From contig JAUHXA010000003.1 of NCBI GenBank assembly GCA_030427245.1, forward strand, positions 124,001 through 188,000: a stretch of DNA of 64,000 bases, given 5' to 3'. Each line of letters starts with the position of its first letter. The stretch's first letter is position 1. Below, piece after piece: positions 42,783-64,000 of this stretch. The position numbers were made by a program, and so were the translations under genes. This DNA comes from Bacteroidia bacterium. GTDB taxonomy: Bacteria; Bacteroidota; Bacteroidia; Chitinophagales; UBA2359. The notes beneath the pieces are model-generated. The model saw only the letters and a list, made by a program, of their open reading frames with translations, was not told the origin of the DNA and searched no databases.

Positions 42783-42818
42783 GTGCCGAATACCAAAATG
42801 GTGTTCGGCACTTTTTTT
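42783..42818 (+). terminator. Intrinsic terminator after the lamin-tail gene
   Basis: Stem 42783-42790 (GTGCCGAA) and 42804-42811 (TTCGGCAC), eight perfect pairs, then seven T residues (42812-42818). The T-run overlaps the stop codon of the convergent membrane-protein gene. Confidence 0.85.
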
Positions 42819-44181: not shown

Positions 44182-44202
44182 GAGGTTGTAGTATTTGTCA
44201 TT

Positions 44203-44236
44203 CAAATTTAACAATAAAATTACATTCTGCTACAAT
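44203..44236 (-). promoter_or_regulatory. Probable promoter of the membrane-protein gene
   Basis: Minus strand: TTG near 44235, 22 nt, then TAAATTTG (44210-44203), a full -7 match. It lies about 22 nt before the ATG at 44181 and inside the longer possible frame, thereby deciding the start. Confidence 0.45.
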
Positions 44237-44338: not shown

Positions 44339-46327
44339 ATGATTAAGCAAAAGATGATTTTTAATGATTTTTATGGAATTAAGATTTCTCTACTGTGGGT
44401 GATTTGTTTTCTGTTGACTACAAATACAATCACTGCACAAACACCAGATAAAGAAGCCATCAAAGCACAATTCCCAGATGCAAAAGCAGTATTTTTGAAG
44501 CAACATGAAACACTAAAAGTCAAATATGATGTTGATAAATGGAACATCCAAAGAAGCTTTGAAGAAGAAATGTTTTACCTTGAAAACGTAGGACAAATGT
44601 ATGGAGAAAAATCCATTTACTACACCAGTTTTGAAGAAATCAAAGACCTTGAAGCTTATACCAAGGTTCCCTACAAAAAGGGTAAAAAAACACTCTATAA
44701 CGAAGTTCCTGTCGAAAAAATAGATACCAAAGATGTCATGATGGGCGGCATTTTTTATTCTGATCACAAAGAAAAACAGTTCATTTTTCCTGCCGTACAA
44801 GAAGGAGCCATTACTTCCGTTTCCTACACCGAAGAAACCGACGAACCCCGATTATTGGGAGCCTTCTTCTTTAGTTCCTATATTCCTGTCCTCTCTTCAA
44901 AATTTACCGTCATAGTGCCTGAAAACGTAGAAATAACCTACAAGGTTTTGGGCGAAGACCTCGACAATATTGACTTCAAAGAACACAAAAAAGGTGCTGC
45001 TACACACTATACTTGGACTGCCAAAAATCTCCCCAAATTGGAACGAGAAGCAGATGCGCCAAGTACCAGCTATTATGCACCTCACGTAGTGGTTTATATC
45101 AAAAGTGGCACTTACGCAGACAAAACGGAGGAAGTGATTACAGGTGTTGAAGGCCTCTACAAATGGTACCATTATCTCGTCACACAAACCGATGATGGAG
45201 AAGATACCGAACTTAAAGCGGTCGTGGACAAACTAATGGATGGCACTGAAACAGATGAAGAAAAGGTAAAAAAAATATTTCAATGGGTACAAAGCAATAT
45301 CAAATACGTAGCCTTTGAAGATGGTTTGGGTGGATTTATTCCGAGAGGGGCAAGTGACGTTTGCACCAAAAAGTACGGTGACTGCAAAGACATGAGCAAT
45401 ATTTTGGTCAAAATGTTGGATATTGCAGGGTTGAAGGCATACCATACATGGATTGGCTCTCGTGATAAGCCTTATTCCTACTACGATGTACCGACACCTA
45501 TTGCTGACAATCACATGATTGCAGCCATCGAACTCAACGATGAAATTGTTTTTTTGGATGCAACAGGTGAATACCTTGCCTTTGGTTATCCAACTTCTAT
45601 GATTCAAGGCAAAGAGGCATTGATAGGAATGGGAAAAGACAATTTCAAAATCATCAAAGTGCCCGTTGTACCGAAAGAGGACAATACACTAACCGAAACG
45701 GTGGAGGTAAACATTGAAGGAAAGGATCTGAAAGGCTCAGCTCAATCAACTTATGTGGGCTACAAAAAGATATTTGCAGAGTATGCCCGATTGAGGGCTG
45801 AGGCAGACGGAGCAACCGACCGTTTTTACAATGCTTATCTACAAAAAGGCAGCAATAAATTTGAAATCACTGACATTGAAGAAAGCGGTTTTTATAGCAG
45901 AGATAAAAATATTGACCTAAAATATGACTTTAAGGTTCCGAGCTACGTCAAAAAGGCAGGAGACAAACTTTATGTGAATCTCAACCTTGATAGAAAATGG
46001 AGCGATAGAGACATAGATTTAGAGAAACGAAAACTGGATAAAGAACGTGACTTTAAACAAATCGAGTATGCTACCTATCGCCTCAATATTCCTGAAGGCT
46101 ATGAAGTCGACTATGTTCCAGAGAACTACAAATTTGACCATGAAGAGTTTGGTTTTGAGATTCGCTATGAACAAAAAGACAATGCCATCATTCTACATTC
46201 AGAGGTTTATATGAATCACCTCCTCCTGAAAAAGAGCAAATTCAAAGAATGGAATAAGATGATTGAGGCCATTTCGGATGCTTATCAGGAAGTAATTGTA
46301 CTAAAAAGCACAGAAGACAATGGATAA
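44339..46327 (+). CDS. DUF3857 and transglutaminase-like domain protein, catalytic triad intact
   Basis: 662 residues; signal peptide about residues 1-34 (start could also be Met6). An N-terminal DUF3857 beta domain (about 60-270) is followed by a transglutaminase-like cysteine-protease fold (about 285-415): Cys349 in KYGDCKDMSN, His392 in DNHMIAA and Asp407 in FLDATGEY make the usual Cys-His-Asp triad. A C-terminal beta domain completes the layout (FRLNIPEGYEV-type strand near residue 585). Predicted periplasmic or surface-exposed; function may be peptide hydrolysis or crosslinking, substrate unknown. Followed by a related protein lacking the triad 172 bp on. Confidence 0.88.
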   Translation: MIKQKMIFNDFYGIKISLLWVICFLLTTNTITAQTPDKEAIKAQFPDAKAVFLKQHETLKVKYDVDKWNIQRSFEEEMFYLENVGQMYGEKSIYYTSFEEIKDLEAYTKVPYKKGKKTLYNEVPVEKIDTKDVMMGGIFYSDHKEKQFIFPAVQEGAITSVSYTEETDEPRLLGAFFFSSYIPVLSSKFTVIVPENVEITYKVLGEDLDNIDFKEHKKGAATHYTWTAKNLPKLEREADAPSTSYYAPHVVVYIKSGTYADKTEEVITGVEGLYKWYHYLVTQTDDGEDTELKAVVDKLMDGTETDEEKVKKIFQWVQSNIKYVAFEDGLGGFIPRGASDVCTKKYGDCKDMSNILVKMLDIAGLKAYHTWIGSRDKPYSYYDVPTPIADNHMIAAIELNDEIVFLDATGEYLAFGYPTSMIQGKEALIGMGKDNFKIIKVPVVPKEDNTLTETVEVNIEGKDLKGSAQSTYVGYKKIFAEYARLRAEADGATDRFYNAYLQKGSNKFEITDIEESGFYSRDKNIDLKYDFKVPSYVKKAGDKLYVNLNLDRKWSDRDIDLEKRKLDKERDFKQIEYATYRLNIPEGYEVDYVPENYKFDHEEFGFEIRYEQKDNAIILHSEVYMNHLLLKKSKFKEWNKMIEAISDAYQEVIVLKSTEDNG

Positions 46328-46499
46328 TTAGTGGTTTTATTACAGTTTTGAACAGGAATATTCTACGAAAAAGAACCTCACTTGAGGCAGCAGAAAACTC
46401 AACGTTCATTGGGAATTCATTCTTGTAAAAAACTCCTGTTCAATATTGATAAACATACAAAGTAATTCAACAGTATATCAATTCAACAATATAATAAAC

Positions 46500-48443
46500 A
46501 TGTCAAGAAAAATCATTTTCCCTCTCATACTATTGTTTGTTTCTTTTACAGCAATGGCACAAAAATACACCCATCAAGATTACGATTGGGCAGAAACTCC
46601 TGTATTGCATGAACTATCGGAAGACGAAATGAAAAAGTCTGCTGTTCAGCTCAAAGATGTGCGAATCCTAGAGTTTGTCTATAGCGACTTGGGTGACCTC
46701 ATCCTCTTTGAAACCAAACACAAAGTCGTGAAGGTGAACCAAGATAAAGCCATTGAAGCCCACAATAAAGTGTTTGTTTCGATGCGAGATGTGGAGGATT
46801 TCACTGTCTTAAAAGCGAGAGCGATTTCACCAGAAGGTAAAATTACGGAGTTGAATCGAGACAATATCAAAGAACTAAAGGATGTAGAAACTTATGGGGC
46901 CTTCAAAATCTTTGCCATTGAAGGAGCTGAAATAGGAAGCGAAATCGAATATTTATATACGACCAAACAAAGCGTGAGAGAACCTTTTGGTCGTATCACC
47001 TTTCAGTCGGATATTGACGTAAAGGAGGCTATGCTAAAAATAATTTCTCCTTCTAACCTCGTTTTTGAAACCCAATCTTACAACGGATTTCCGAAAATGA
47101 CCGAAACAGAGGGCGAAGAAACCCGCATTCTACAAGCAACGGCTAAAGATATCCCTGCACTTTTGGAAGAAGATTATGCAACCTATCAATCCAACCTGAT
47201 GAAGGTCGACTATAAGTTGTCCTACAACAATGCAGGTCTTAAAAAGAAGGAATTGTACTCATGGGCAGAAGCGGCACAGTATTTTGGAAGCATCCTCAAA
47301 GACGAATCGGAAGTGGCAGCGGATATGCTCAAAAAAGAATTGAAGGCTCTGAAAATAAAAAAGATGAGTGAGGAAGAAAAAATCAAAACCATTGAGAACT
47401 ACGTGAAAGATAATTTCTCGTTGGAGATGAGCGCAGGGGCAGAATATGCACAAGTCGAAAAAATATTGGTGAATAAATTTGCCAGCGAATTTGGACTGAA
47501 TCGCTTATTTGCAGCTTTTTTACAAGCGGCAGAAATTGACTTTGAAGTAGTTCTGACGAGCAACCGCTTTCAATCCAGATTTGACAAAGATTTTACGAGT
47601 TGGACCAACCTTACCGACATTATTTTCTATTTTCCCAAGTATGACAGCTATGTAACTGCTCCTATGATTCAATACCGCTATGGATATGCGCCCTATCAAA
47701 TGGCAGAAAACTATGGTTTGTTCTTCAAATTGGGTGAAAACCCTTCGCCAGAGGTGCGCTTTATTTCGATGCCTGGCGCAGATAAAAGTGTCAATAAAAT
47801 TGATGCACACATTACCTTCGACAACGACTTCAATGCCAAAATGAATGTCTTCAATGCATGGACAGGCTATCGGGCTTCGGAATTCAGAACCATTCACAAA
47901 TACGATGAGAAATTCATGGAAAATCGTGTATTGGCGGGTTTGGAAGGGGCAAAAATGCTGAACTTAGCGGTCAAAAACGAAGACTTGGCAGACAATGCCA
48001 AAGGTGGTAAAAACTTTGAATCGGACACCGAATTGGATGTTAGTTCTTTGGTCGAAAAAGCTGGTAAAAGCTACCTGTTTCGCCTAGGGGAAGTAATTGG
48101 CTCACAGGTCGAACTGTATCAGGAGCATGAACGCCAAAACAACATCGAAATGCAGTATCCTACTTACTATGACCGCACTATTTCGATTGAGATTCCGGAG
48201 GGTTATACGGTTGAAGGTTTGGAGGATGCCAAAATCCACAACTATGTCGAAATTGATGGCGAAAAAGTAAACGGCTTTGAATCGGATTACACCATTGAAG
48301 GAAATACGGTCACTATTCATGCAGATGAGTTTTACCACACTATTTCTTTGCCAAAAGAAACTTATGAAGATTTCCGAAAGGTGATCAATGCGGCTGCAGA
48401 CTTCAATAAGGTGGTTTTGGTGCTGGAAAAGAAAGTAGATTAG
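46500..48443 (+). CDS. DUF3857 protein with degenerate transglutaminase domain
   Basis: 647 residues from the ATG at 46500, chosen because it starts the signal peptide (MSRKIIFPLILLF to AMAQ); a frame 18 codons longer exists. The DUF3857 part (about residues 30-250) contains YTTKQSVREPFGRITFQS. In the region where active relatives have YGDCKDMSNLL it reads FASEFGLNRLFAAFLQAAEI: the fold-defining helix is there but the Cys is gone, and the His and Asp motifs are also missing. The C-terminal part (IPEGYTVEGLE, VVLVLEKK) follows the family. Presumably a non-catalytic partner or binding form of the preceding protein. Confidence 0.85.
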   Translation: MSRKIIFPLILLFVSFTAMAQKYTHQDYDWAETPVLHELSEDEMKKSAVQLKDVRILEFVYSDLGDLILFETKHKVVKVNQDKAIEAHNKVFVSMRDVEDFTVLKARAISPEGKITELNRDNIKELKDVETYGAFKIFAIEGAEIGSEIEYLYTTKQSVREPFGRITFQSDIDVKEAMLKIISPSNLVFETQSYNGFPKMTETEGEETRILQATAKDIPALLEEDYATYQSNLMKVDYKLSYNNAGLKKKELYSWAEAAQYFGSILKDESEVAADMLKKELKALKIKKMSEEEKIKTIENYVKDNFSLEMSAGAEYAQVEKILVNKFASEFGLNRLFAAFLQAAEIDFEVVLTSNRFQSRFDKDFTSWTNLTDIIFYFPKYDSYVTAPMIQYRYGYAPYQMAENYGLFFKLGENPSPEVRFISMPGADKSVNKIDAHITFDNDFNAKMNVFNAWTGYRASEFRTIHKYDEKFMENRVLAGLEGAKMLNLAVKNEDLADNAKGGKNFESDTELDVSSLVEKAGKSYLFRLGEVIGSQVELYQEHERQNNIEMQYPTYYDRTISIEIPEGYTVEGLEDAKIHNYVEIDGEKVNGFESDYTIEGNTVTIHADEFYHTISLPKETYEDFRKVINAAADFNKVVLVLEKKVD

Positions 48444-48564
48444 ACAAACATCTCATCCTTCTTAGGTGTCATGGGGCTTATAAATGATAAATGTGTTTAG
48501 TTTTCAGTTACGTTTTTCTTATTAGCAAGATAGTAAAAGTAGCTGATACAGCAAGAATCAAATA

Positions 48565-48616
48565 AATGGTAACCTTTGTCGTGTCAAATGAATTCGATAC
48601 GACAAAGGTTGCCATT
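48565..48616. repeat. 21-bp perfect hairpin in gene-free 301-bp gap
   Basis: Bases 48565-48585 pair with 48596-48616 along all 21 positions (two G-U pairs) around a 10-nt loop (AAATGAATTC). On the + strand TTTTCTTA overlaps the end of the stem, so it could end transcription from the DUF3857 pair, 120 bp upstream; the stem is far longer than a normal terminator. A frame of 60 codons through it is rejected. Nothing else was recognised in 48444-48744. Confidence 0.6.
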
Positions 48617-48744
48617 TTCTTAGCGTATAAGTGTGCCATAGTTTTTTTTCAAAGATGGTTTTTGTTTTTTAGCAGACGGAAAACATTTAAACTATTCAAA
48701 ACAAAAATCTATTATACCAAACAAAAATCCAAACCCCTGTATAC

Positions 48745-51678
48745 ATGAAACACAACTACAATTACCTCCAACTCTTCGCCTTATTCTTGCTAACGGCAAG
48801 CCTGTCCCCTCAATTACAAGCACAAGACCTCTACCTATTTGAAGACTTCAATGAATGTGAATTGCCAAGCGATTGGCGAGTAAGTGTAGATGGAATAGCG
48901 GCTGTTTGGGGCGTGGGCATTTCGGAGAACGTGGAAGCAGGCGAAAACAACAGCATGGATGGTACTTGTATGGTCTATTTTGACGACGATGCTTCGGGAG
49001 AAGACAGTCCGTCGTGGAACATAGAATTGGAATCACCTACTTTTGACGCAACGGTCAATGCCCAAATCACCCTTGAAGTAGATGTGCATTTCCGAAATTG
49101 GAATGGCAGCGCATCGTTGGTTATTGAAGCCTTCAATGGCAGTGAATACGTTGAAGTAGAACGCTTTCAAGGAGACGAAGACAGTGGATGGGGGTTTCCC
49201 GATTACCGACATATTTTTCTGGATTTGACCCCTCATAAAAACGACAAAATGACCATCCGTTTTGTGTATGACGATGGCGGCGTTTGGGCTTGGTGGGCTT
49301 CGATAGACAATTTTGAAGTGAAAGGTTGGGGTAAAGATGGAGACTTGTTGCTGGAGAACTTCAATGCTTGTGAAATGCCCGAAGGTTGGGAAACCAACGT
49401 TGCTGAGGGTTCTTGGGATTGGGTGTTTGGGGTGCAATTTGATGATTTTGGCGACCCGATTAGAAGCATTGATGGAAGCTGTTTTGTTTTCTTTGACGAT
49501 GACATCATTGGAGATACAATTCCCTCAAAAGTACAATTGACCTCGCCTTCCTTCAATGGACGAGAGTTTGCACAAATTTTCTTGGAAATGGATGTGCATC
49601 ACCGAGATTATGAAGTGGAAAACTTCAATATTTACGTTTTTGACGGAACAGAATACCAACGAGCCAAAAGCTATTCGGGTGAAAACATCGAAGGAGAATT
49701 TTTCAATACCGCCATTCACGACCGCATTGACATTTCGGCTTACCGCTCCGAAAATATGCACTTGATGTTTGAATACGACGACAATGCGAATTGGGGTTGG
49801 TGGTCAGGATTTGACAATGTGCGGGTCTATGGTGAGGGCGAAAGTTTTGATATTTGTGACAAAGCCAAAAGTGTGACTTTGGACGGAACGTGTGTGGAAG
49901 GCACAAATATCAACGCACTTTTTGAAGGTGGTGCTTCGGAATGTGTGGAAAGTGTGCATGGAATTTGGTATTCTTTTGTCGCTCCAACTTCGGGTGCGGT
50001 CACGATTCGAGCCAAAACGGACTTCAATGATGTTCTCACTGTCTTTTCGGGAACTTGTGGCAATTTACAGCAAATCAATTGCACGAATTACGACGAATTT
50101 GGTTTTGTAGGCGAAATTTTGCCTGTCATGGACTTGACTCCCAACCAAACCTATTTTGTAAGGGTCAGTGGGGCAGTTGATAAATTCGGCAATACGCAAG
50201 GCAATGTGTGCTTGTCCATTGCAGAAGGTGCTGCCTCAAAAACACCTCCTGCAAATGACCTCTGTTCAGATGCCATTCCGTTGAATATAAACGGTAATTG
50301 CAGCGCAGGGACAAACAAAGATGCTACTTTCTTTGGGCCTGAACCGAGCCTCAACCTCAAATCTAAGTCCTCGATTTGGTACAGTTTTGAAGCTCCTGAG
50401 GATGGCGAGGTTATCATCGAAAGCAATGCCGATTTTGCGGATGTGCTAACCGTCTTTTCGGGAACGTGCGGCAATTTGACCGAAATAAACAGCAGCGATT
50501 TTGGACATAGTTTGCACCTCACCGACTTGGAAGCAGGCGCAAGGTATTTGATTCAAAGTGCGGGTTTCTTCTCGACCGTTGAAGGAACGGTCTGTATGAA
50601 AGTGAGTTCGGCAGAAGCTGCCCCTCAAAATGATTTGTGCAACGGTGCAATCAACCTACAATTGGGCGAAAGCTGCACCGTCGGCAACAATACCTACGCT
50701 ACCTTCAATGGGCCTCGCCCAAGTTGTGATGTCGACCCAACGGCTTCAATTTGGTTTCGATTCACCGCCCCTTCTTCGGGCAGGGTCTTGGTCAATACGG
50801 GGGCGGACTTTGTGAGCGTTTTATCTGTTTTTGGCGGTTCTTGTGGCAATTTGGAGGAAAGGGGCTGCGCCTACAATCCTTCAAAATGCGATGAAGGCGT
50901 GGTGTTTGAATTGGCCGGCAACGAAGACTATTTCCTTCAAGTGGCTTCGGCTCAAAATCCTTTTGGTTATACCTACGGTGATGTGTGTGTGCGGATAAGC
51001 GACTATGAAAATGCACCTGTCAAAGCCCGATTGAAGGTCTTTTTGGAAGGCACTTACGCCAGCAGCAATTTGATGAACAATCACCTCAAAGCTGCCAACC
51101 TCATCCCTTTCGACCAACCTTACAACCGTGCGCCCTGGAACTACAGCGGCTCGGAGTGCATCACCGAAATGCCTATCAATGCCGTTGATTGGGTCTTGGT
51201 CGAGCTTCGAGAAGCCAACAACAGCGAAATCATCGTGGAACGAAAAGCGGCTATTCTCCTATCCAATGGCAATATCGTGGACGAAGGCAATGATGGCGTT
51301 CTTTTCCAAAATGCTACCGAAAACAACAGCTACTACACCATCGTCCGACACCGCAATCACTTGGCGCTCATGAGTTCTGTCCCCATTCCCTTGCCCAACT
51401 CCAATGCCTACAATTTTACGGCTGACCCTTCGTATGTGATGGGCGGTTCGGCTCAATTGACGCTACTGGAGAATGGCAACTATGCAGCGATTGCGGGAGA
51501 CTTCAATGCGGATGGCGTGATTTCGGTTTTTGACTTCAATTATTACTCTGAACAGAAATCTATGCTGAATGAATATGTGGATTCGGATTGTAATTTGGAT
51601 AGAGTCGTGAGCGTAAAGGATTATAATTTGTATCAGGGGCATCCTTCTGTGATTGGGGTGGAAGAGGTGCGATATTAG
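48745..51678 (+). CDS. Exported multidomain surface protein with anchor, PPC-like and dockerin-like domains
   Basis: 977 residues. Signal peptide residues 1-27 (ending LQAQ). Two related jelly-roll domains begin FEDFNECELPSDWRV and LENFNACEMPEGWET (about 30-200 and 205-375), of the 'choice-of-anchor' type common in Bacteroidota exoproteins. Three PPC-like domains follow (about 380-500, 510-630, 640-760), each with IWYSFVAP/IWFRFTAP, DVLTVFSGTCGNL strands. The C-terminus holds two EF-hand-like loops, GDFNADGVISVFDFNYY and DCNLDRVVSVKDYNLYQ, the pattern of dockerin type I repeats binding calcium. No standard T9SS CTD is seen, so its export route or surface anchoring is unclear. The last 25 codons are part of a 139-bp tandem duplication. 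Confidence 0.85.
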   Translation: MKHNYNYLQLFALFLLTASLSPQLQAQDLYLFEDFNECELPSDWRVSVDGIAAVWGVGISENVEAGENNSMDGTCMVYFDDDASGEDSPSWNIELESPTFDATVNAQITLEVDVHFRNWNGSASLVIEAFNGSEYVEVERFQGDEDSGWGFPDYRHIFLDLTPHKNDKMTIRFVYDDGGVWAWWASIDNFEVKGWGKDGDLLLENFNACEMPEGWETNVAEGSWDWVFGVQFDDFGDPIRSIDGSCFVFFDDDIIGDTIPSKVQLTSPSFNGREFAQIFLEMDVHHRDYEVENFNIYVFDGTEYQRAKSYSGENIEGEFFNTAIHDRIDISAYRSENMHLMFEYDDNANWGWWSGFDNVRVYGEGESFDICDKAKSVTLDGTCVEGTNINALFEGGASECVESVHGIWYSFVAPTSGAVTIRAKTDFNDVLTVFSGTCGNLQQINCTNYDEFGFVGEILPVMDLTPNQTYFVRVSGAVDKFGNTQGNVCLSIAEGAASKTPPANDLCSDAIPLNINGNCSAGTNKDATFFGPEPSLNLKSKSSIWYSFEAPEDGEVIIESNADFADVLTVFSGTCGNLTEINSSDFGHSLHLTDLEAGARYLIQSAGFFSTVEGTVCMKVSSAEAAPQNDLCNGAINLQLGESCTVGNNTYATFNGPRPSCDVDPTASIWFRFTAPSSGRVLVNTGADFVSVLSVFGGSCGNLEERGCAYNPSKCDEGVVFELAGNEDYFLQVASAQNPFGYTYGDVCVRISDYENAPVKARLKVFLEGTYASSNLMNNHLKAANLIPFDQPYNRAPWNYSGSECITEMPINAVDWVLVELREANNSEIIVERKAAILLSNGNIVDEGNDGVLFQNATENNSYYTIVRHRNHLALMSSVPIPLPNSNAYNFTADPSYVMGGSAQLTLLENGNYAAIAGDFNADGVISVFDFNYYSEQKSMLNEYVDSDCNLDRVVSVKDYNLYQGHPSVIGVEEVRY

Positions 51679-51691
51679 CGGAACGGAAGCT

Positions 51692-51717
51692 TTGTCAACG
51701 GTCGCAGACCTTGACAA
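51692..51717. repeat. Palindromic hairpin, REP-like, copy 1
   Basis: TTGTCAA-C-GGTC, loop GCA, GACC-TTGACAA: 11 pairs with a single bulged C. It stands 14 bp behind the stop codon and may serve as terminator; no T-run follows, so a REP-type element or transcript-stabilising stem is equally likely. Confidence 0.6.
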
Positions 51718-51830
51718 CAGTTGAGGTGATTAAACACAGAAGGTCATGAGTGTGAAGAATTATAATTTGTATCAGGGACAACCTTCGATGATTGGGGTGG
51801 AAGAGGTGCGATATTAGCGGAACGGAAACT

Positions 51831-51856
51831 TTGTCAACGGTCGCAGACCTTGACAA
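51831..51856. repeat. Palindromic hairpin, REP-like, copy 2
   Basis: Identical to the hairpin at 51692, carried along by the 139-bp tandem duplication. Confidence 0.6.
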
Positions 51857-52147
51857 CAGTTGAGGTGATTGAACACAGAGAGACTGAGGTTTTTGACTCC
51901 CTTGACTTAATGTGGGTATTTTTTGGATTTGAAAAACCAAACTCAATTCCAATTTCCTTCTGATATTTTATCGGATGAACACCATATAAAAATACGAAGT
52001 AAAAAAGCTTATATTGCCACAACTGTGGGACAAAACTGCTTTTTGGGCATGGGAGGAGGAGGTTTGGGTAAGCTTCAAATAAAATGCTTGGGTATCAATT
52101 ACATACAAAATATACACAAACACTTACACACCCCAAAACACAAAAAA

Positions 52148-53791
52148 CTACTCCCAAACAATCTTCAATGCCTCACAGTAATGGTAATCAGCGGTTATTC
52201 TAATTTTATCGTCTTCCTCCGCCCCGTCTTTTGCGATAGCCGCAACAGCAGGAGCTTTTGGCCCAACATTGTAGGCATAGACGATTAGGTAGTTATCCTT
52301 TGAAGGGTCGACAGTACCACTGATGCGTTTTTTGTCAGCCAAAAGTTCGTATTTATCCAAAATACATTCCCCATTCAAGAAAACCGAAATTTTGTCACCA
52401 TCTACTTCACCATCGTCCCAAGTATCAACAACAACTTGATTACCAGAAATATTGAGTGTACCAATGATTCTTATCTGTCTACCATTGATAGATTTGACAA
52501 ATCCGTTTTCATTCAAATCCACTGCATAAGCAGATTTTGGTTTTGGGATTTCCTTGACCACTTCCGCTTTAGGCTCAGGCTTCGGTACTTCTTTGACTAC
52601 TTCGATTTTTTCCTTTGGCTCAGGTTCAGGTACTTCTGCTACCACTTCAATCTTAGGCTCTTCTTTGAGCGGCAATGATTTTTGGGGAGCAGGTTTAGGT
52701 GTTTCAATTTTTGGAGGCGTAATGGCAGAAGTCAGTACTTTTGGAGGGGTGATGGTTTCCTTTTTTTCGACAACGACAGGTTCAGGTTTGGGTTCTTCTT
52801 TGGGCTCTTCTTGTGGTTTGAAGTTTACGCCCCACAAAATCACCTTCCCATCATATCCACCACTTGCGATGTATTTACCATTGGGGCTGAACGCCAAAGT
52901 TTTGACCTTTCCTTGATGTCCCGCCGCCACGAGTTCTAGTTTTTTAGTCTTGACATTCCAAATTTTGAACATATTACCCGCATTTCCATGAGCAATCAAT
53001 TGGTCGTCTGCCGAAAAACTAACATAGCTATAATCTTTGTCTCCTGCGGGAATGTGCCAATTATCTTTGTGGTTGGGATACTTCCAAAATCTCAAACTTC
53101 CCTCTTGACTCCACCCTCCCAAAAGATTGCCATCGTGTGAAAAGTGGATGTCATTGATATAATGCCCCCCATTAGAAGAAGATTCTTCAATTTCATTTGT
53201 AGCGAAATTCAAAAAATGCAATTTATTTCCACAAGCAAATACGAGCGTTCTTTTGTCGGGTGAGATGTCTGCGGAAGTCGTATGGAATTTTCCCAAAAAT
53301 AAGATTTCGGGTAGTGTTTTGCTGCCAATTTCGGCTCGGCACAATTTGGCATTTTTGCCGCCAAAATACAGGTGCTTTTCATCTGGACTGAATACCACAA
53401 AATAAGCCGCTTTTTGTTTGAAATGAATCGGGTTGTTGAACGACTGCATTTCTCTTCCTGTTTCTAAGTCCCACAGTTTGATAGTGCCATCCGTTGAAGC
53501 ACTTGCGAGGCGAAAACCATCTTTGGAGAAGGTGAGGTGATTGATAATGTCTTCGTGTCCTTGCAGGCTTTGAATCAAATTGCCCGAATTAGCATCCCAA
53601 ATATTGATGACATGCCCATAACCCACGCTTGCGATTCGGTTGCCTCTTTCATTGAAGGTCAAAAACTCCACTTTGCCTTTGTTTGAAAAAGTAAAGCTTC
53701 GTATCTGTTCCAATTGAAGTGCTCCTTCAGATTGCCCATAGAATGTATGTGTTGCGAAAAGAAAACACAATAAGCATATCAGTTTTTTCAT
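52148..53791 (-). CDS. Exported WD40 repeat protein with Pro/Glu-rich linker and C-terminal beta domain
   Basis: 547 residues from the ATG at 53791 (MKKLICLLCFLF signal peptide, ending FYGQ); the frame reaches 16 codons further, but a promoter lies there. Residues about 25-320 are WD40 blades (NIWDANSGNLIQSLQGH, IKLWDLETGREMQSF, KVILWGVNFK). A linker of about 90 residues is rich in Pro, Glu, Lys and Val (repeated PEPKxEVVKE/VPxPEPK), then a C-terminal domain of 120 residues (RIIGTLNISGNQVVVDTWDDGEVDGDKISVF) occurs that is typical of exported Bacteroidota proteins. Predicted periplasmic or surface scaffold with spacer; partner unknown. Confidence 0.85.
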   Translation of the reverse strand: MKKLICLLCFLFATHTFYGQSEGALQLEQIRSFTFSNKGKVEFLTFNERGNRIASVGYGHVINIWDANSGNLIQSLQGHEDIINHLTFSKDGFRLASASTDGTIKLWDLETGREMQSFNNPIHFKQKAAYFVVFSPDEKHLYFGGKNAKLCRAEIGSKTLPEILFLGKFHTTSADISPDKRTLVFACGNKLHFLNFATNEIEESSSNGGHYINDIHFSHDGNLLGGWSQEGSLRFWKYPNHKDNWHIPAGDKDYSYVSFSADDQLIAHGNAGNMFKIWNVKTKKLELVAAGHQGKVKTLAFSPNGKYIASGGYDGKVILWGVNFKPQEEPKEEPKPEPVVVEKKETITPPKVLTSAITPPKIETPKPAPQKSLPLKEEPKIEVVAEVPEPEPKEKIEVVKEVPKPEPKAEVVKEIPKPKSAYAVDLNENGFVKSINGRQIRIIGTLNISGNQVVVDTWDDGEVDGDKISVFLNGECILDKYELLADKKRISGTVDPSKDNYLIVYAYNVGPKAPAVAAIAKDGAEEDDKIRITADYHYCEALKIVWE

Positions 53792-53807
53792 GTTAATAGT
53801 AGTTTTA

Positions 53808-53840
53808 CAAAAAATAAGTAAGGTGTTAGGCAAATTCAAA
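53808..53840 (-). promoter_or_regulatory. Promoter of the exported WD40 gene
   Basis: Minus strand: TTTG (53840-53837), 20 nt, then TATTTTTTG (53816-53808), close to TAnnTTTG. It places transcription start near 53800 and the ATG at 53791, excluding the longer frame. Confidence 0.5.
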
Positions 53841-53914
53841 CCTTATAGGTTTTTCTTTATGTAAATTCACCTAATTAACAAAACCATTTAAAGATTAAGT
53901 TCTAAACCTATAAG
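53838..53914. repeat. Inverted repeat AAACCTTATAGG / CCTATAAG
   Basis: AAACCTTATAGGTTTT (53838-53853) is itself a small stem-loop; its complement partner AAACCTATAAG lies at 53904-53914. Short repeats of this form are frequent between Bacteroidota genes. The first copy overlaps the -33 element of the WD40 promoter. Confidence 0.4.
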
Positions 53915-54002
53915 ATTTTGCTCAAATTTCTGACTCTTTACAATAAGTTTTAGTTTAGTACAATTCAAATATTATTCCAAAGTACCAACTGTCAAAGATA
54001 CT

Positions 54003-55358: not shown

Positions 55359-55397
55359 CAGCGTATCTTTTGCGCTAAAAATAGTAATTTTGTGCTT

Positions 55398-56153: not shown

Positions 56154-56160
56154 GGAAGAA

Positions 56161-56508
56161 TCAAAGAAAGAAGTAAATCAAATCCCCTGCTACAAAATTT
56201 TCACCAAAATATTTTCTATAGCTGACCACATCGCCATCTACCAAAATAGACAACTGCAAATCCTTGCCGCCATAATTGTAGGCTCGCAAACTGATGGCAG
56301 AAGCGGGGTCAAAGCTTTTGTGGAAACTGTATTCAAAAGGTAACTCAAGGTCTTCTCTATCTGTTGTTTTCCCAAACTCATTGGTATAAATCACCCTCAT
56401 CAAAATACTGTCGGTTGCTTCAATACGGTAGGTGATGTTGAGAGGGGAAAGTTCGTTTACAGGAGCTTTTTCTGGGGCTTCAATCAAGGCATTTTGGTAT
56501 TTTTCCAT
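56161..56508 (-). CDS. Hypothetical protein, 115 aa
   Basis: Not recognised. No signal peptide. Beta-rich: ITYRIEATDSILMRVIYTNEFG, EYSFHKSFDPASAISLRAYNYGG and LQLSILVDGDVVSYRKYFG form successive strands with an Ig-like/transthyretin-like rhythm, and the C-terminus is hydrophobic (DLIYFFL). Converges with the barrel gene, 7 bp apart. The 163 bp before it are A+T-rich and bear no feature that I could name. Confidence 0.65.
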   Translation of the reverse strand: MEKYQNALIEAPEKAPVNELSPLNITYRIEATDSILMRVIYTNEFGKTTDREDLELPFEYSFHKSFDPASAISLRAYNYGGKDLQLSILVDGDVVSYRKYFGENFVAGDLIYFFL

Positions 56509-56794
56509 TTTGTTTGTTGTTTTTATTGGTTCATATATTGTTTCTTAGTAGAGTGAACTGACTCTTATATGACAAAATTCTTGCCGTTTACAAATTTTCA
56601 TTACAAAAAAAGATTATAAATACAAAAGCATCAAGTTTCTAAAGCGTAAAACTACAAATATCTTTTTCAATGTGAAAGGATTATCGCTGATTTTATGGTT
56701 GAAAAACTTGAATAGATGCCCTATAAATTATAATAAATCAGATTTTTTAAATATCTTGTTTGTTTCAGCCAAGATACTTAATAGTCTTCTTCCG

Positions 56795-58204
56795 ATGAAT
56801 ACCGAAATATTATCAAAATCAATGATTTACCTCTACGAATACGGCAACCGATTTTTTTGGGGAACAGATGAAGAAGTAAACCCATTTTTATCTTTTTTGG
56901 ATGAAATATGGAACAAACGACAATACAGCCCTTTTGCTTGGCGACAAAGCGTTTCTTCCTTTCATGACAACGAACAACAGGATGTTTTCCCAAATCATCA
57001 AGGTGTTTCTCAACAGTTTATCAGCATTGACCGACAAAACTATCTACAAGCCAAAAACTATGTAGGCATCATCCGATTTCAAACCAAAACGGTTCACCTC
57101 CTTCCCAAAATTTTCTACCCAAAGCCTTATCAGGAAGCAAGCACCGAAACACTAAGTTTTGTACATCAACAACTCATGCGTTGGCTCTCCTACAGCTCCA
57201 AAATCACCTTTCCCCTTGTTGAAGGGCAGTACGATAGCCGAAGCAAAAGCGATATTGCCGAAATCATGGTGTTCACTTTTGCCCACTATACCCATCAATT
57301 GTTGCAAGAACAGCAATTCACGACCTACGAATCTGTCCACAAAAATTCAGCATTTGTCAAAGGCCGATTGCAGACCGCAAAATATGTCACCAAACATCTT
57401 TCGGCTGGAAAATGGCAAGAAATCCCTTGTGAGTTTGACCAATACGGTTTAGATAATCTATTTAATCGTATATTGAAATACACAAGTTCTCAACTGCAAT
57501 ACCTCACCCAAAATACCACAACCCAACACCTGTTGCAGCAAATCCTTCAATCCCTCTCCAATGTTTCGTCTCAGAGCTTTGAAGCGTCGGATTGCGACGG
57601 TGTACATTTGCATCCGCTTTTTGAAGAATGGCAATTGGTCTTAAATTACTGCCGCTTGTTTTTGGCAAGTTCTGCCCATTTCAGTTCACAAACCGCCACC
57701 AAAGCCTTGGCATTTTTGATACCAATGGAGCAACTGTTTGAGCAGTTTGTATATGGTTTTCTACGACAACATTTCGCTCAATGGCAGCCCACTTTTCAAG
57801 ACAACAGCACTTTTCTTGCTTTAGACGAGCAAGAAAAGCCCGCTTTCCAACTGCAATACGATATTAGCTTAACGATTGAAGGAGAGCCCATTATCATAGA
57901 CTGCAAATACAAAATCATTCGTTTTGAGAATGGAAAAGTTAAGGGAATAGACGTGAAGGATTTGTATCAGATTGCAGCCTATGCGGTGCGTCGAGGCTGC
58001 AAGAAAGTACTTTTGGTCTATCCAAATACTCTTGAAGACTGCAAAAACGATTCAGAAAGAACTTCTAAAAATGCCACTTATTTCGACATTGTAGAGTCTT
58101 TTTCGGGGCAGCCGATTCGAGTTGGAGTGGTGAAAATTCCAATGATTAGTCGAAAAAGTAAAGAGGATTGGGTGACGGAAATGAAGGGGGCATTTTTGAT
58201 GTAA
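56795..58204 (+). CDS. McrC-family restriction subunit homologue, orphan
   Basis: 469 residues from the ATG at 56795; the frame extends 41 codons further but that stretch is low-complexity and non-protein-like. The N-terminal half carries McrC-like segments (YVGIIRFQTKTVHLLPKIFYP, QQLMRWLSYSSKI, FVKGRLQTAKYV), and the C-terminal part is a PD-(D/E)xK nuclease: Asp356 in QYDISL and Asp369-x-Lys371 in IIIDCKYK, followed by YQIAAYAV. In McrBC the nuclease subunit works with the GTPase McrB on modified DNA. No McrB gene is adjacent, so this is an orphan or works with a distant partner. Active site residues look intact. Confidence 0.88.
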   Translation: MNTEILSKSMIYLYEYGNRFFWGTDEEVNPFLSFLDEIWNKRQYSPFAWRQSVSSFHDNEQQDVFPNHQGVSQQFISIDRQNYLQAKNYVGIIRFQTKTVHLLPKIFYPKPYQEASTETLSFVHQQLMRWLSYSSKITFPLVEGQYDSRSKSDIAEIMVFTFAHYTHQLLQEQQFTTYESVHKNSAFVKGRLQTAKYVTKHLSAGKWQEIPCEFDQYGLDNLFNRILKYTSSQLQYLTQNTTTQHLLQQILQSLSNVSSQSFEASDCDGVHLHPLFEEWQLVLNYCRLFLASSAHFSSQTATKALAFLIPMEQLFEQFVYGFLRQHFAQWQPTFQDNSTFLALDEQEKPAFQLQYDISLTIEGEPIIIDCKYKIIRFENGKVKGIDVKDLYQIAAYAVRRGCKKVLLVYPNTLEDCKNDSERTSKNATYFDIVESFSGQPIRVGVVKIPMISRKSKEDWVTEMKGAFLM

Positions 58205-58306
58205 TGGCATATTAAGGAATCAAAAGATAGACTTCAAATATTTGTTTATCAATGCTTCTGTAAAAACGAAATATATCATTGATTCTGTTCAGAAACTTAG
58301 TGTCTT

Positions 58307-58338
58307 TTTGAATAGTATCATAAAATTTAATACTTTAG
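58307..58338 (+). promoter_or_regulatory. Promoter of the second DUF3857 cluster
   Basis: TTTG (58307-58310), exactly 20 nt, then TACTTTAG (58331-58338), seven of eight matches to TAnnTTTG. Leader of about 22 nt before the ATG at 58367. Confidence 0.5.
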
Positions 58339-58366
58339 CGTTTTAAAAAAACAAGTAATTCATTTT

Positions 58367-60271
58367 ATGAAAATCAAATCTCTCCTTAAATGCGCCTTTC
58401 TATTAGGTATTTTGATGTATGCCAACCTATTTCAAACGACTTTTGCTTTATCTTCAATGGAAGACGAAGAACCTTATCACGCAAGCCTTTCCACTGAAGT
58501 TTTTACTTTTGAACGCAACAAGTCCAAAAGTAGTGATTTTGCACATTTCTTTTCTGTCCAACAAAAAGTCAAAGAATCACTTATTACAGAGGAAGAGAAG
58601 GTTGTCTTTGCCAATGCCTTGTTTTTTGACAATGAATCGGAGGTATTGAAGGTGACAGCAAAGATGGGTAGAATAAAACTCCCCGTCACCAAAACAGCTA
58701 ATTCGTATCAGTCAGATGGCATTTTTCACTCGGATGCCAAAATCTATACCTATTCGTTTCCGCTTTCTATGGTGGACCAGACACACTGCGAAACGGTGCA
58801 AGAATACCGGGATTTCAAATATTTGTCCCCCGTTTATTTCCATACTTTTTATGCCGTCGAAAGGAAAATTATTCAAGTGAAAGTGCCTGAATGGCTGGAG
58901 GTGGAGATTCGTGAATTCAATTTTGAAGAAGGGAAAGTGAGTAAGCGAACTTTTGAAGAAAAGGGTGGTGTGGTTGTTCACGAATTTGTCATGACGGATT
59001 TGGAGGCTCGAAAGCGTGAAACAAATGGAGTCGGACGTTCTTACGAATTGCCGCACATCATGATTCTCTGCAAAGCGATAGAAATTGGAGGAGTGAAACA
59101 AACTTTGTTGGCTTCTACGGACGACCTTTACAAGTGGTATCGAAATTTGGTCAAACAGGTCGAAAACGACCCAAAAATATTAGAGAAAACGGTCGAAAAA
59201 GTGACTGCTCAATACAGCGAAGACCAAGATAAAATTGAAGCTCTTTTTTATTGGGTGCAAGACAATATTCGGTACATTGCTTTTGAAGATGGCATTGCAG
59301 GTTTTAAGCCCGCTACGGCTCAAGATGTTTTCAACAAACGGTATGGCGACTGCAAGGGAATGTCCAATTTATTGAAGGAAATGTTGACAATTGCGGGTTA
59401 TGATGCACGTTTGACTTGGCTGGGCACTCGTCGCATTGCCTACGATTATTCGGTGCCTTCTTTGTGTGTGGACAATCACATGATTTGCACCTTGATTCGA
59501 GAGGAAGAAAGAATATTTTTAGACCCAACCGAAAAATACTGTCCTTTCGGAGAGTTTGCACATCGGATTCAAGGGCAGCAAGTAATGATTGAGGACGAAG
59601 ATACTTATGAGTTGGCGCATATTCCCGAATTGGATGCGGAACAGAACAAAACCACGAAGAAAATCACCCTTGATTTGGAGGGTGTGATGTTGAAAGGACA
59701 AGCGACTTATGAGTATTTTGGTGAGGCAAAGGTGGAACTACATAATGCCTATCACGGCACAAAATCCGATAAAAAGGAGGAGGCACTGAAACATTACTTG
59801 TCAAGAGGTGACAAAAATAGAAGGGTGAAAAATGTGGAAACCAAGCATTTTGACGACCGTAAAAAACCGCTTTTTATTCAACACGATTTTGAATTGGACA
59901 ATGAAGTCATGGAAGTGGGAGAGGAGTTGTATGTGACGATTGATTACGGTAAAATGTTTAAAAACGCAGAAATGGAGGAAGCCCGAAAAGGTGACTATGC
60001 TTTTGGCTACCGTTTTGTGGACACTTTTGACATTCACTTCAATATTCCCGAAGGCTATTCAGTCAGCTACTTGCCCGAAAACTTGGACATTTCAAACTCT
60101 GATTTTGATTTCCATATTCAGTTTACCCAACACGATGACCGCATTGAATACCACAAAAAAATAGCTGTGAAAAGTGGAGTGATTCCCAAATCGAGTTTTG
60201 AAGATTGGGACAAAGCTATTAAATCATTAAAGTCGGTGTACGATGATAGGATTGTGCTCAAAAAAAAATAA
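58367..60271 (+). CDS. DUF3857 and transglutaminase-like protein, catalytic triad intact
   Basis: 634 residues; signal peptide residues 1-28. Layout as in the protein at 44339: DUF3857 part (about 40-250, KIYTYSFPLSMVDQTHCETVQEY), transglutaminase-like core (about 265-400) with Cys329 in RYGDCKGMSN, His371 in DNHMICT and Asp386 in FLDPTEKY, and the C-terminal beta part (FNIPEGYSVSYLPENLDI). Paralogue of the 44339 protein, and similarly stands first in a run with non-catalytic relatives. Predicted periplasmic; substrate unknown. Confidence 0.88.
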   Translation: MKIKSLLKCAFLLGILMYANLFQTTFALSSMEDEEPYHASLSTEVFTFERNKSKSSDFAHFFSVQQKVKESLITEEEKVVFANALFFDNESEVLKVTAKMGRIKLPVTKTANSYQSDGIFHSDAKIYTYSFPLSMVDQTHCETVQEYRDFKYLSPVYFHTFYAVERKIIQVKVPEWLEVEIREFNFEEGKVSKRTFEEKGGVVVHEFVMTDLEARKRETNGVGRSYELPHIMILCKAIEIGGVKQTLLASTDDLYKWYRNLVKQVENDPKILEKTVEKVTAQYSEDQDKIEALFYWVQDNIRYIAFEDGIAGFKPATAQDVFNKRYGDCKGMSNLLKEMLTIAGYDARLTWLGTRRIAYDYSVPSLCVDNHMICTLIREEERIFLDPTEKYCPFGEFAHRIQGQQVMIEDEDTYELAHIPELDAEQNKTTKKITLDLEGVMLKGQATYEYFGEAKVELHNAYHGTKSDKKEEALKHYLSRGDKNRRVKNVETKHFDDRKKPLFIQHDFELDNEVMEVGEELYVTIDYGKMFKNAEMEEARKGDYAFGYRFVDTFDIHFNIPEGYSVSYLPENLDISNSDFDFHIQFTQHDDRIEYHKKIAVKSGVIPKSSFEDWDKAIKSLKSVYDDRIVLKKK

Positions 60272-60398
60272 CTACAACAAAAGAGAAATCATTTAAGGCT
60301 TTGAGGTGTAATCTTTGGAGTGAAACGAAAAAGTGACATCTCAAAGCTGAGTCGAATCTCGATAAAAAGAAATTTTTGTTATAAAAAACTCAATATGT

Positions 60399-62540
60399 AT
60401 GAAGTCAATTTTCCTATTCCTTTTTACAATTTTTATCTGCAATCCCGATACTTTGTTGGCTCAAAAATCGAAAAAAAAGCAACAAGTAAAAGAGGGTTTG
60501 AACCTATCAACAGTCAATAGAGATGAAGGCTTTGAGGTAATTGAAATTCCCGAAAAATGGAAGGAAGAATCGGCAGTGATTATTTGCCAAAGTTTGACTT
60601 TTAAGTATATACGAAAAAGCGTTAAAAAAATTAGTGTTGAGGAATCGTCTCGTAAACGCATCAAACTTCAAGACAAGGCAGCGGTTGAAGAGTTTTCAAA
60701 ATTTTACTACATCAATGTGCCTAATAGTTCGGTAGGCTTCAAAATTGTTAAACCTGATGGAAGGGAAATGGATATCGACCCTTCTGAATCGATAGAGGTT
60801 GAAGAAGATATTCCCGCTATTTTTCAAGCCTATGGTCAAACTCTCAGTTACAAAAAACTGGCTATTCCTGGATTGGAAATTGGAGATATTATTGACTATG
60901 CTTATGTGCATGAGGAGGTTCGAAGACCTGGTCCAGCAGAGGTTTTTGCGCCTGTCATTATGAATTTACATCGTAAGTACCCCTTAGTAAAACAGATTGT
61001 TGAGTTTGATATTGATGGAGGCTTTTTCTTGAACTTTAATTCATATAAGGGCGCACCTGAATTAGTTGAGATTCCTTTGACAGCAGAACAAGAATTGGAT
61101 GATGTCTATTGGGATGTATTTCAATATAAGTTTGTAGATGAAATGCGAGAAAAAGAACAGGATGAAAAATGGCATTTTCCATTTCGAACATTACCTACTG
61201 TAAAGTTTCAAGTTTACTATTTGGAGTACGCAAGTGAGATGCAAGCTAGTAATTGGATATATTATTTGGGCAAACAAGGTATTGTTCACAATAAAGTTGA
61301 TAAAGTTGATATACAAGCCAAAACTTCAACTTGTTATCATAATACAGAAGTTATTTACGTTGATTGGATTCAAAAGTATTTGAAAAAATACCATGAAGAT
61401 GAAAGCGATAAAAGGAAATTGGTAGAGATAGTGTATTACTATTTCAGACATTTGGTAACAATTTACGGTAGCACTTACAATCAAGAAAAAACGATAAGTG
61501 ATTTAGTTTTTGCCAGAACAATGGATGTTGTGTTGAGTGATTATGATATTGAAGTAGAAGTAAATGCTTGTGTGCCTCGAAATATTGGAATATTGGAGGA
61601 GGTGCTATTTCCCGCAGAACTAAGTTATTTTGCAATTTGTCAGTTGGATGAAAAAGAGTATGTCTTATTGACCAATTTTGATAAGTTTACCAATATGGGG
61701 GATATTCCGTATTACCTTGAAGGGCAAGAAGGACTTGAGTTATCTCCTGCATTGGCAAGAGGAAATAGAGTCCCTACAACTAATTTTAAAGAAAATCAGA
61801 CTCATACCACCACGGCTATAGAGTTTAATGAAAATATGAATGAGATAAAAGTCGCTCGAAGCCTTTCCTTCAAAGGACACAATCGAAATAGTGAGTGGAC
61901 TCATTTAGTAATTGATTCAGAATACTTGGAAGAAGACCTTGAACGACATCCTGTTGTCATTAAATATCCAACAGTTAAAGCACCTGAATTTGCCGAGAAC
62001 CAAAAAGAAGAATTGAGCCAACGACTCGAATACATCGAATCCAATACGAGCCGAGAATTGGGGGTAGAATTAACGAGTTATGACAGTTTTGAATTGGAAG
62101 AAGATGGTCGTTATCACGATAATCCAATCTTGAAGTACAATGAATCTTTTACACTCACTGATTTACTCCAAAAAGCAGGCGGAAATTACATTGTAGAAAT
62201 TGGCAGATTCATTGGTAAACAGGTCGAAATTACGGATGATATACAGGAAAGGCTCTATGATATTTATATGTCTTATGCCCGCTCGTTTGTCAATGAAATA
62301 GAACTGACGATTCCAAAGGGATATATCCTTGAAGGTTGGGAGGCTCTGAATATGGAAGTCAAAAATAATACTGGAATATTCAGAAGTACTGCCAAAATTG
62401 AAGAAGACAAACTTATCATTGATGTTCGAAAGGCTTATCGAAACAACTATGAACCCAAAGAGAATTGGAGCGCAATGATTGATTTTTTGGAGGCAGCCTA
62501 TCAGTTTTCACAACAGAAGGTGGTTTTGAAGCAGCAGTAA
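60399..62540 (+). CDS. DUF3857 protein with degenerate transglutaminase domain
   Basis: 713 residues, signal peptide 1-22 (FLFLFTIFICNPDTLLAQ). The DUF3857 part contains FYYINVPNSSVGFKIVKPDG and EIGDIIDYAYVHEEVRRPG. In the transglutaminase-like region (about 330-460) the helix that should hold GDCKDMSN reads LVFARTMDVVLSDYDI, with no Cys; the His and Asp segments are replaced too. C-terminal part KGYILEGWEALN is family-like. It lies 127 bp behind the active paralogue, same strand. Nearest relative is the truncated gene at 62580, to which long stretches are identical (LQDKAAVE, FYYINVPNSSVGF). Confidence 0.85.
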   Translation: MKSIFLFLFTIFICNPDTLLAQKSKKKQQVKEGLNLSTVNRDEGFEVIEIPEKWKEESAVIICQSLTFKYIRKSVKKISVEESSRKRIKLQDKAAVEEFSKFYYINVPNSSVGFKIVKPDGREMDIDPSESIEVEEDIPAIFQAYGQTLSYKKLAIPGLEIGDIIDYAYVHEEVRRPGPAEVFAPVIMNLHRKYPLVKQIVEFDIDGGFFLNFNSYKGAPELVEIPLTAEQELDDVYWDVFQYKFVDEMREKEQDEKWHFPFRTLPTVKFQVYYLEYASEMQASNWIYYLGKQGIVHNKVDKVDIQAKTSTCYHNTEVIYVDWIQKYLKKYHEDESDKRKLVEIVYYYFRHLVTIYGSTYNQEKTISDLVFARTMDVVLSDYDIEVEVNACVPRNIGILEEVLFPAELSYFAICQLDEKEYVLLTNFDKFTNMGDIPYYLEGQEGLELSPALARGNRVPTTNFKENQTHTTTAIEFNENMNEIKVARSLSFKGHNRNSEWTHLVIDSEYLEEDLERHPVVIKYPTVKAPEFAENQKEELSQRLEYIESNTSRELGVELTSYDSFELEEDGRYHDNPILKYNESFTLTDLLQKAGGNYIVEIGRFIGKQVEITDDIQERLYDIYMSYARSFVNEIELTIPKGYILEGWEALNMEVKNNTGIFRSTAKIEEDKLIIDVRKAYRNNYEPKENWSAMIDFLEAAYQFSQQKVVLKQQ

Positions 62541-62579
62541 TGAAATGCTATTAATAGATTCTTTTAAAAAAAAAATTTT

Positions 62580-64000
62580 ATGAAGAGCAAATTATCATGT
62601 ATTTATATCATTGTATTCTTATTAATTAGTTGTAATTCTGCAACGGTATTGGCTCAAAGGTCGATGAGCAAAAAAGGAATGCAAGTAACAAAACGCATCA
62701 ATTTGGCTTATATTGACAGCGACGAAGGTTTTCAAGTGACCGAAGTTCCTGAGAAATGGAAAGAAGAATCGGCGGTCATTATTTGCCAGATTTCGAGCTT
62801 TGTATATAGCCGAGAGAGTACCCGAAAGATTGGGGTACAAGAGTTGTCTCGCAAGCGGATAAAGCTGCAAGATAAGGCGGCAGTAGAGAAGTTTTCGGAG
62901 TTTTTCTACATCAATGTGCCGAACAGTTCGGTCGGTTTCAGTATCATCAAGCCTGATGGGAAAGAAATTGTAGCCGACCCGTCGGAAGCTATTGAAGTGA
63001 CAGAAGATATCCCCGCCATGTATCGAGCGTATAGTCGAACGCTCAGCTATCGAAAATTGGCAATTCCAAGTTTGGAAGTTGGGGACATCATTGACTACGC
63101 TTATGTTTATGAAAACATCCGAAGACCAGGTATGGCGGAAGTATTCGACCCCGTTATCATGACCTTGCCAAGGAATTATCCAGTTGTAAAACAAATCGTG
63201 GAATTTGATGTGGATAGAGGTTTTTTCTTGAACTTCAATTCCTTCAATGGCGCACCCGATTTGGAGGAAGTTCCTCTAACGGATGCCCAAAAAGCGAGCA
63301 AAAGATACGATAATGTCAAGAAATACAGCTTTGTAGATGAAATGCAAGAAAAGGAAAAAGACGAAGAATGGCACTTTCCCTTTCGTTCGCTTCCTTCCAT
63401 CAAATTTCAAGTGTATTATTTGGAGAGTGCCGCTCAAAAGTACAATTGGATATTTTATTTGGGGGAACAAGGCGAGCCTCATAAAGAAGTATCTACAAAA
63501 GACATCAACAGAAAAACTTCAAAACACTACCAATATACAGAACCTGTCTATTTTACATTGATACACAAATACCTAAAAAAATACCACCGCAACGAAAAAG
63601 ATAGGCGAAAACTGGTGGAACTGACCTACTACTATTTCCGACACTTGGTGACGACCTATGGGATTCCGTATGGCGGCAAAGAAGTAAACGACTTGGTGTT
63701 TGCGAAAACCATGGAAAGAGTATTGGACAAACACCACATTGAAACAGAGGTAAATGTTTGTGTACCTCGAACGCTTGGCACATTGGAGGAGGTGTTATTT
63801 CCTGCCGAAATAAGCGCTTTTGTGATTGTGAAGATAAAGGAAAGGGATTACATGGTTCTACACAACTTTGATAAGTTCTCCAATTTGGGAGATACTCCCT
63901 ATTATTTGGAAGGAGTAGTCGGTGCAAAATCTTCAGAAGCATTGGAAAACGGATATGGGCTTCCAGTGACGACTTACGAACAAAACAAAACTCATTCGCA
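62580..64000 (+). CDS. DUF3857 protein, degenerate transglutaminase type, cut by window end
   Basis: Partial: 473 codons are present and the frame is open to the last base. The ATG at 62580 opens a signal sequence with LLISCNS, a good lipobox (Cys18), so a lipoprotein is likely, unlike its neighbour, which ends LAQ. The protein is a close paralogue of the preceding gene: same KWKEESAVIICQ, SRKRIKLQDKAAVE, PNSSVGFSIIKPDG and EWHFPFR segments. The catalytic triad is again missing (the equivalent helix reads LVFAKTMERVLDKHHI). It stands 39 bp after the 60399 gene, so likely in the same transcript. Confidence 0.85.
   Translation, partial: MKSKLSCIYIIVFLLISCNSATVLAQRSMSKKGMQVTKRINLAYIDSDEGFQVTEVPEKWKEESAVIICQISSFVYSRESTRKIGVQELSRKRIKLQDKAAVEKFSEFFYINVPNSSVGFSIIKPDGKEIVADPSEAIEVTEDIPAMYRAYSRTLSYRKLAIPSLEVGDIIDYAYVYENIRRPGMAEVFDPVIMTLPRNYPVVKQIVEFDVDRGFFLNFNSFNGAPDLEEVPLTDAQKASKRYDNVKKYSFVDEMQEKEKDEEWHFPFRSLPSIKFQVYYLESAAQKYNWIFYLGEQGEPHKEVSTKDINRKTSKHYQYTEPVYFTLIHKYLKKYHRNEKDRRKLVELTYYYFRHLVTTYGIPYGGKEVNDLVFAKTMERVLDKHHIETEVNVCVPRTLGTLEEVLFPAEISAFVIVKIKERDYMVLHNFDKFSNLGDTPYYLEGVVGAKSSEALENGYGLPVTTYEQNKTHS

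Follow-up and report, generated by a model that had tools for sequence, protein, structure and literature searches.

Two groups of genes in the window (the whole 64,000-nucleotide stretch of DNA analysed here) encode DUF3857/transglutaminase-like proteins, and in each group an active cysteine enzyme is followed by one or two relatives that lack its catalytic residues. Each group is probably a two- or three-part exported enzyme-pseudoenzyme system, in which the active enzyme depends on the dead relative as a non-catalytic subunit that retains the full fold. The genomic partnership of active and dead members is close to certain; a physical complex between them is likely. Adjacency can also persist for co-expression without physical contact.

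Genes of the two groups

Genes are referred to here by the window position at which they start (Table 1). Both groups lie on the forward strand, one comprising 44339 and 46500 and the other 58367, 60399 and 62580. A preliminary description of this DNA had reported five DUF3857-type open reading frames in two groups, and all five are present. Four of them are assigned to the DUF3857/transglutaminase-like family by Pfam (PF12969, PF01841 and PF12970); the fifth, 58367, has no DUF3857 Pfam match and is placed in the family by a score of 759.7 bits against a full-length profile of which it is itself a row. DUF3857 scores above the Pfam cut-off in 44339, 60399, 62580 and the frame beginning at 46446, Transglut_core does so only in 44339 and 58367, and DUF3858 falls below its cut-off in the window proteins. 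The start at 46446 is a TTG; the ATG at 46500 opens a signal peptide and is the likelier start of this gene. The last gene runs out of the window: its complete product of 716 aa is encoded at positions 581-2731 of stretch L007 and ends 730 bases beyond the window (window position ~64730).

Table 1. The type II DUF3857/transglutaminase-like genes of the window
Product	Window positions	Strand	Full-length profile score
Type II active member A, putatively exported, DUF3857/transglutaminase-like, 662 aa, Cys349/His392/Asp407	44339..46327	+	type II active, 896 bits
Type II inactive partner A, 647 aa, no triad, no cysteine	46500..48443	+	type II inactive, 806 bits
Type II active member B, 634 aa, Cys329/His371/Asp386	58367..60271	+	type II active, 759.7 bits
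Type II inactive partner B1, 713 aa, no triad	60399..62540	+	type II inactive, 649 bits
Type II inactive partner B2, tandem copy of B1	62580..64000, continues beyond the window	+	type II inactive, 655 bits

All five proteins begin with a signal-peptide-like stretch, read by eye, which suggests that the pair members are exported to the periplasm; no sorting domain was found in the five by Pfam. Promoter and terminator scans gave chance-level results and do not set the operon limits. The source genome (7.6 Mb in 187 contigs) contains a third pair, on contig C131, with the inactive gene at positions 6405-8378 and the active gene at 8421-10370 of stretch L008. This pair belongs to type I and the window proteins to type II, as defined below.

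Two types of active and inactive members

Relatives were collected in two samples. For the first, 198 near-complete genomes spread across the Bacteroidota were scanned with PF12969 and 80 matching regions were fetched; full-length members were gathered by iterated profile search and classed at the three triad columns. The same 198 genomes were re-scanned with four full-length profiles, whose scores are clearly separated. For the second, GTDB representative genomes were scanned with the type II active profile, giving 80 named loci in taxa that include Hymenobacter, Kordia, Polaribacter, Niastella, Mucilaginibacter, Marinifilum and Flavobacterium; this profile was itself built from first-sample proteins, and some species may be present in both samples.

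A tree of 174 proteins, built with the triad columns removed, contains four deep clades: type I active (54 proteins), type I inactive (82), type II active (13) and type II inactive (14). Solitary active enzymes are also present in this tree, outside the four clades. Each of the four receives 99-100% SH-aLRT in a mixture-model tree of 54 representatives. None of the histories compared is rejected by the AU test (a single loss for all dead members, p-AU 0.30; pairing of type I only, 0.48; pairing of type II only, 0.44). The triad-less proteins of the window had been described as closer to each other than to their active neighbours, and this is borne out: 46500 is 19.5-20% identical to 60399/62580, versus 16.8% between 44339 and 46500 and 16.4% between 58367 and 60399, and the type II inactive clade holds at 99% SH-aLRT with the triad columns removed.

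Loss of the catalytic triad

The Cys-His-Asp triad of a catalytic transglutaminase/papain-like cysteine enzyme is complete in 44339 and 58367, at exactly the residues named in the preliminary description, and is lacking in 46500, 60399 and 62580. The aligned Cys motif KYGDCKDM becomes KFASEFGL in 46500, a protein with no cysteine at any position, and has no counterpart in 60399 and 62580; with no Cys in the aligned motif of any of the three, the statement that the followers have lost the triad stands. Judged by sequence, these three are predicted pseudoenzymes. All 93 type II active proteins carry Cys-His-Asp. The preliminary description had left room for triad residues kept elsewhere in the inactive forms; among 89 type II inactive proteins, none retains the Cys, nor any two of the triad residues, and the residues at the triad positions are variable. 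This, together with the 99% SH-aLRT of the type II inactive clade, agrees with the proposal that the loss was an old event.

Type I dead members are less uniform. Ser-His-Asp stands at the triad positions in 13 of 82, and Asp is kept in nearly all, as might be expected if the "dead" members catalysed another reaction with a different residue set. However, members of the same clade have Val, Gly, Ala, Ile, Thr or Pro at the Cys position with no substitute fixed, and type II dead members keep no set of triad residues at all, which makes a second catalytic activity very improbable. On the active side of type I, Glu replaces Asp as the third triad residue in 50 of 54 active-clade proteins (WLECTSQ; for example, L008:8421-10370), an unusual Cys-His-Glu set.

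Adjacency and co-occurrence

In the first sample, 53 of the 54 type I active-clade genes lie directly beside an inactive member, the sole exception itself lacking the Cys. Twelve of the 13 type II active genes do the same, and the inactive partner of the thirteenth (genome G189) is on another contig. The median gap between active and inactive gene is 4 bases. All 65 of these adjacencies join members of the same type, with no mixed type I/type II pair; active-active neighbours do not occur in the sample, and inactive-inactive neighbours occur 18 times in type I. In the second sample, an inactive gene is found directly downstream and on the same strand in 75 of the 80 type II loci. Three of the remaining five stop at a contig edge, leaving 77 testable loci and two true exceptions (L128 and L186); in both genomes a strongly matching type II inactive gene lies elsewhere, with no active neighbour in the stretch taken. 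Since L128, L186 and G189 retain an unlinked inactive gene, the pair is kept even when unlinked.

Re-scanning the 198 genomes with the full-length profiles finds type II genes in 13 genomes, each of which has both active and inactive members; the other 185 have neither. Type I active genes occur in 51 genomes, all of which also have an inactive member, and 53/53 of these genes adjoin one; eight genomes have the inactive member only and none the active only. Fisher tests of co-occurrence give p = 1e-20 and 3e-39, values that ignore kinship and are indicative only. Thus, a dead paralogue is consistently present and is encoded with its active relative, as is characteristic of an enzyme-pseudoenzyme pair. 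The preliminary description had held that the pairing is kept and the set functional, and had taken chance-level adjacency in other genomes as the outcome that would speak against it; the frequencies found (53/53 for type I, 12/13 for type II in the first sample and 75/77 testable loci in the second) uphold the proposal. Because type I dead members occur without the enzyme in eight genomes and the enzyme never occurs without them, the enzyme appears to need its pseudoenzyme; the same eight genomes imply that the dead member also does something where no type I enzyme is its neighbour.

It could be argued that tandem duplication left the pairs behind as passive relics, with adjacency simply inherited and no functional link between the members. 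Tandem duplication does occur in the family, as in 60399/62580 and the 18 inactive-inactive neighbours of type I. However, the surrounding gene order is scrambled (apart from a TPR-MORN gene described below, each neighbour family is limited to 12 loci at most) while the pair holds in 97-100%. In addition, unlinked pairs are still co-retained, the dead copies are under purifying selection (see below), active-active pairs, the expected early stage, are never seen, and an active gene without a dead partner is found in 0 of the 198 genomes. The relic explanation is thus extremely improbable.

Obligate co-occurrence, with the enzyme never alone, is also accounted for if the dead member acts as an inhibitor, chaperone or brake, holding its active partner off until a signal arrives, like a propeptide or the immunity partner of a toxin. 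Gene order bears on this idea in both directions: the dead gene comes first in 38 of the 53 type I adjacencies, as expected if a brake is made first, whereas in type II it is always second (12/12 in the first sample and 75/75 in the second). Furthermore, the dead members are long-kept, full-length look-alikes rather than small inhibitors, and they occur alone in eight genomes. A braking role is therefore unlikely, and a non-catalytic subunit on which the enzyme depends remains the preferred explanation.

Some type I dead members are solitary and form a clade of their own, found in genomes that also contain a normal pair (L081:2422-4374, L106:2733-4703, L109:567-2510, L105:2762-4726, L116:16486-18468 and L072:1571-3520). 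Phosphoglycerate kinase-like genes lie just upstream at some solitary type I dead loci. Candidate active-inactive fusion ("Rosetta stone") proteins were rejected: these DUF3857 frames of ~1250 aa consist of TPR repeats and one active copy.

Structure of the active and dead members

AlphaFold models of 44339 (pLDDT 93.4) and 46500 (pLDDT 94.2) both have 3KD4 as their best structural match, with Z scores of 21.7 and 20.9, respectively, over 472-485 residues. After 3KD4, the active core matches LapG (4fgo; Z 11.7, 3.5 A, 135 residues), followed by TglA, PNGase, human transglutaminases and the non-catalytic protein 4.2 (7uzs, Z 9.6). The transglutaminases and PNGase score only slightly below LapG, and the fold alone cannot separate a peptidase from a transamidase. 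The crosslinking (acyl transfer from glutamine to an amine) or trimming suggested in the preliminary description would be candidate chemistries. The core of the dead member matches the transglutaminase domain of XPC (8ebv_H, Z 11.4). According to the model, the dead member keeps the whole three-domain fold with the transglutaminase core intact. The N-terminal sandwich (residues ~45-260 of both models) resembles OST1/ribophorin I and the N-domains of M1 aminopeptidases (Z ~10-11).

Searching the PDB by sequence with single proteins gave no match, and a profile search gave 3KD4 only. This structure is Parabacteroides distasonis BDI_1141, a "putative protease" that is matched by the DUF3857 profile; Pfam names DUF3857/DUF3858 "with PDB structure". 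3KD4 shares its three-domain fold with the models of window pair A. It differs from active members in the profile alignment, where YGTPLE is set against the active YGDCKD and Pro occupies the Cys column. By this alignment, the only solved relative found, which is labelled a protease, appears to be a dead member. Inferring function from it, or from single-subunit assays, would then mislead. A relative of 3KD4 in genome G337 (32% identity over the stretch searched) lies, at L222, directly after an active protein with GVCKD...FNH...LDP, and L097/L125 contain a further kind of active-inactive pair. The same arrangement thus recurs in two further lineages.

Selection and coevolution

Distances among active and among inactive members are correlated at r = 0.918 over 87 type II pairs (permutation maximum 0.146), a value that includes shared species history. 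Window pair 1 matches the pair at L126 and window pair 2 that at L041; since each has its own matching relatives, the pair evolves as a unit. The two dead copies 60399 and 62580, which appear as a recent tandem duplication of the dead partner, are 65.5% identical, with pN 0.21 and pS 0.77 (saturated), and are under strong purifying selection.

Overall conservation in type II is similar in dead and active members (JS 0.407 vs 0.435), and its distribution along the protein bears on one form of the substrate-binding partner proposed in the preliminary description, a receptor whose degenerate cleft captures the target and passes it to the enzyme. A three-domain fold that includes an intact transglutaminase core in the model fits such a receptor, as do R356, Y377 and R393, residues near the old pocket that are conserved in type II dead members. 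In active type II proteins conservation peaks in the core (JS 0.56). In dead members, however, the core is the least conserved domain (mean JS 0.39, versus 0.40 and, in the C-terminal domain, 0.43), only 7 of its 150 positions exceed JS 0.7 as compared with 24 of 243 in the C-terminal domain, and the triad-position residues vary freely. The low conservation of the core and the variable triad positions argue against substrate binding in the old pocket, and a receptor role is unlikely. Instead, this pattern points to a role of the type II dead member, structural or regulatory, that would be exerted through surfaces outside the old pocket.

Proposed mechanism and relation to known systems

The active protein would be a transglutaminase-fold cysteine enzyme, most likely a LapG-like peptidase or a transamidase working in the periplasm. 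Its dead relative would form a heterocomplex with it, and within this complex the dead subunit may stabilise, activate or position the enzyme. Activation is the likeliest mode, given that the enzyme does not occur by itself, that a full-length look-alike always accompanies it, and that the known cases work in this way: in trypanosomatids, S-adenosylmethionine decarboxylase (AdoMetDC) is activated by forming a heteromer with prozyme, a catalytically dead paralogue (PMC5201418), and deoxyhypusine synthase is likewise activated by a heteromer with a dead paralogue (PMC3663545). These cases are eukaryotic, confined to a single clade and of unrelated folds, whereas the pairs described here are bacterial, putatively exported, gene-adjacent and spread across a phylum. 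LapG, the best structural match of the active core after 3KD4, is periplasmic in LapD/LapG systems (PMC4359373). It is, however, a single-domain protein regulated by the membrane receptor LapD, with no DUF3857 sandwich and no control by a dead paralogue.

The dead members also have counterparts among non-catalytic proteins. Erythrocyte protein 4.2 and the transglutaminase domain of XPC/Rad4 keep the fold without catalysis, and it serves them as a binding platform. Unlike the dead members of the Bacteroidota pairs, they are neither encoded beside an active sister enzyme nor known to depend on one. Dependence of an enzyme on a dead relative is known from isolated cases, most of them in eukaryotes; in the Bacteroidota it can be seen in the gene content of a whole phylum, since the active member of a pair is never alone in 198 genomes. 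The search, which covered open-access literature, found DUF3857 mentioned in passing in one paper, nothing on a dead transglutaminase paralogue in Bacteroidota, and nothing on MORN together with transglutaminase in Bacteroidetes. Enzyme-pseudoenzyme pairs are thus already known, and it is the phylum-wide, gene-adjacent, exported bacterial form with a transglutaminase fold that appears to be new. With it, an envelope enzyme family gains a concrete architecture, in which both partners rather than one should be expressed.

Neighbouring genes

Of 88 type II loci, 44 (L046:2080-5385, L059:2185-5481 and 42 others) have a gene for a TPR and MORN_2 repeat protein of ~1100 aa immediately upstream of the active gene, mostly overlapping it or within a few bases of it. 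This repeat protein, putatively exported, is a probable third component at the type II loci that have it. Neither window pair has it as a neighbour, and the source genome yielded no full-length copy. A broader reading, for and against which the odds seem even, is that the pairs represent a phylum-wide, near-obligate envelope machine whose enzyme would be inert without its dead full-length paralogue; the machine would exist in at least two major and two minor lineages, with the TPR-MORN protein as a third component in about half of the type II loci.

Three other genes of the window were noted. An McrC-like gene (PF10117) lies at 56672-58204, with no McrB-like open reading frame adjoining it. 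A membrane-protein-like gene without a Pfam match lies on the reverse strand at 42817-44214, and at L127 its homologue is found at the corresponding site, upstream of the type II active gene. Finally, an open reading frame of 6052 aa extends over 18369-36527 on the reverse strand.
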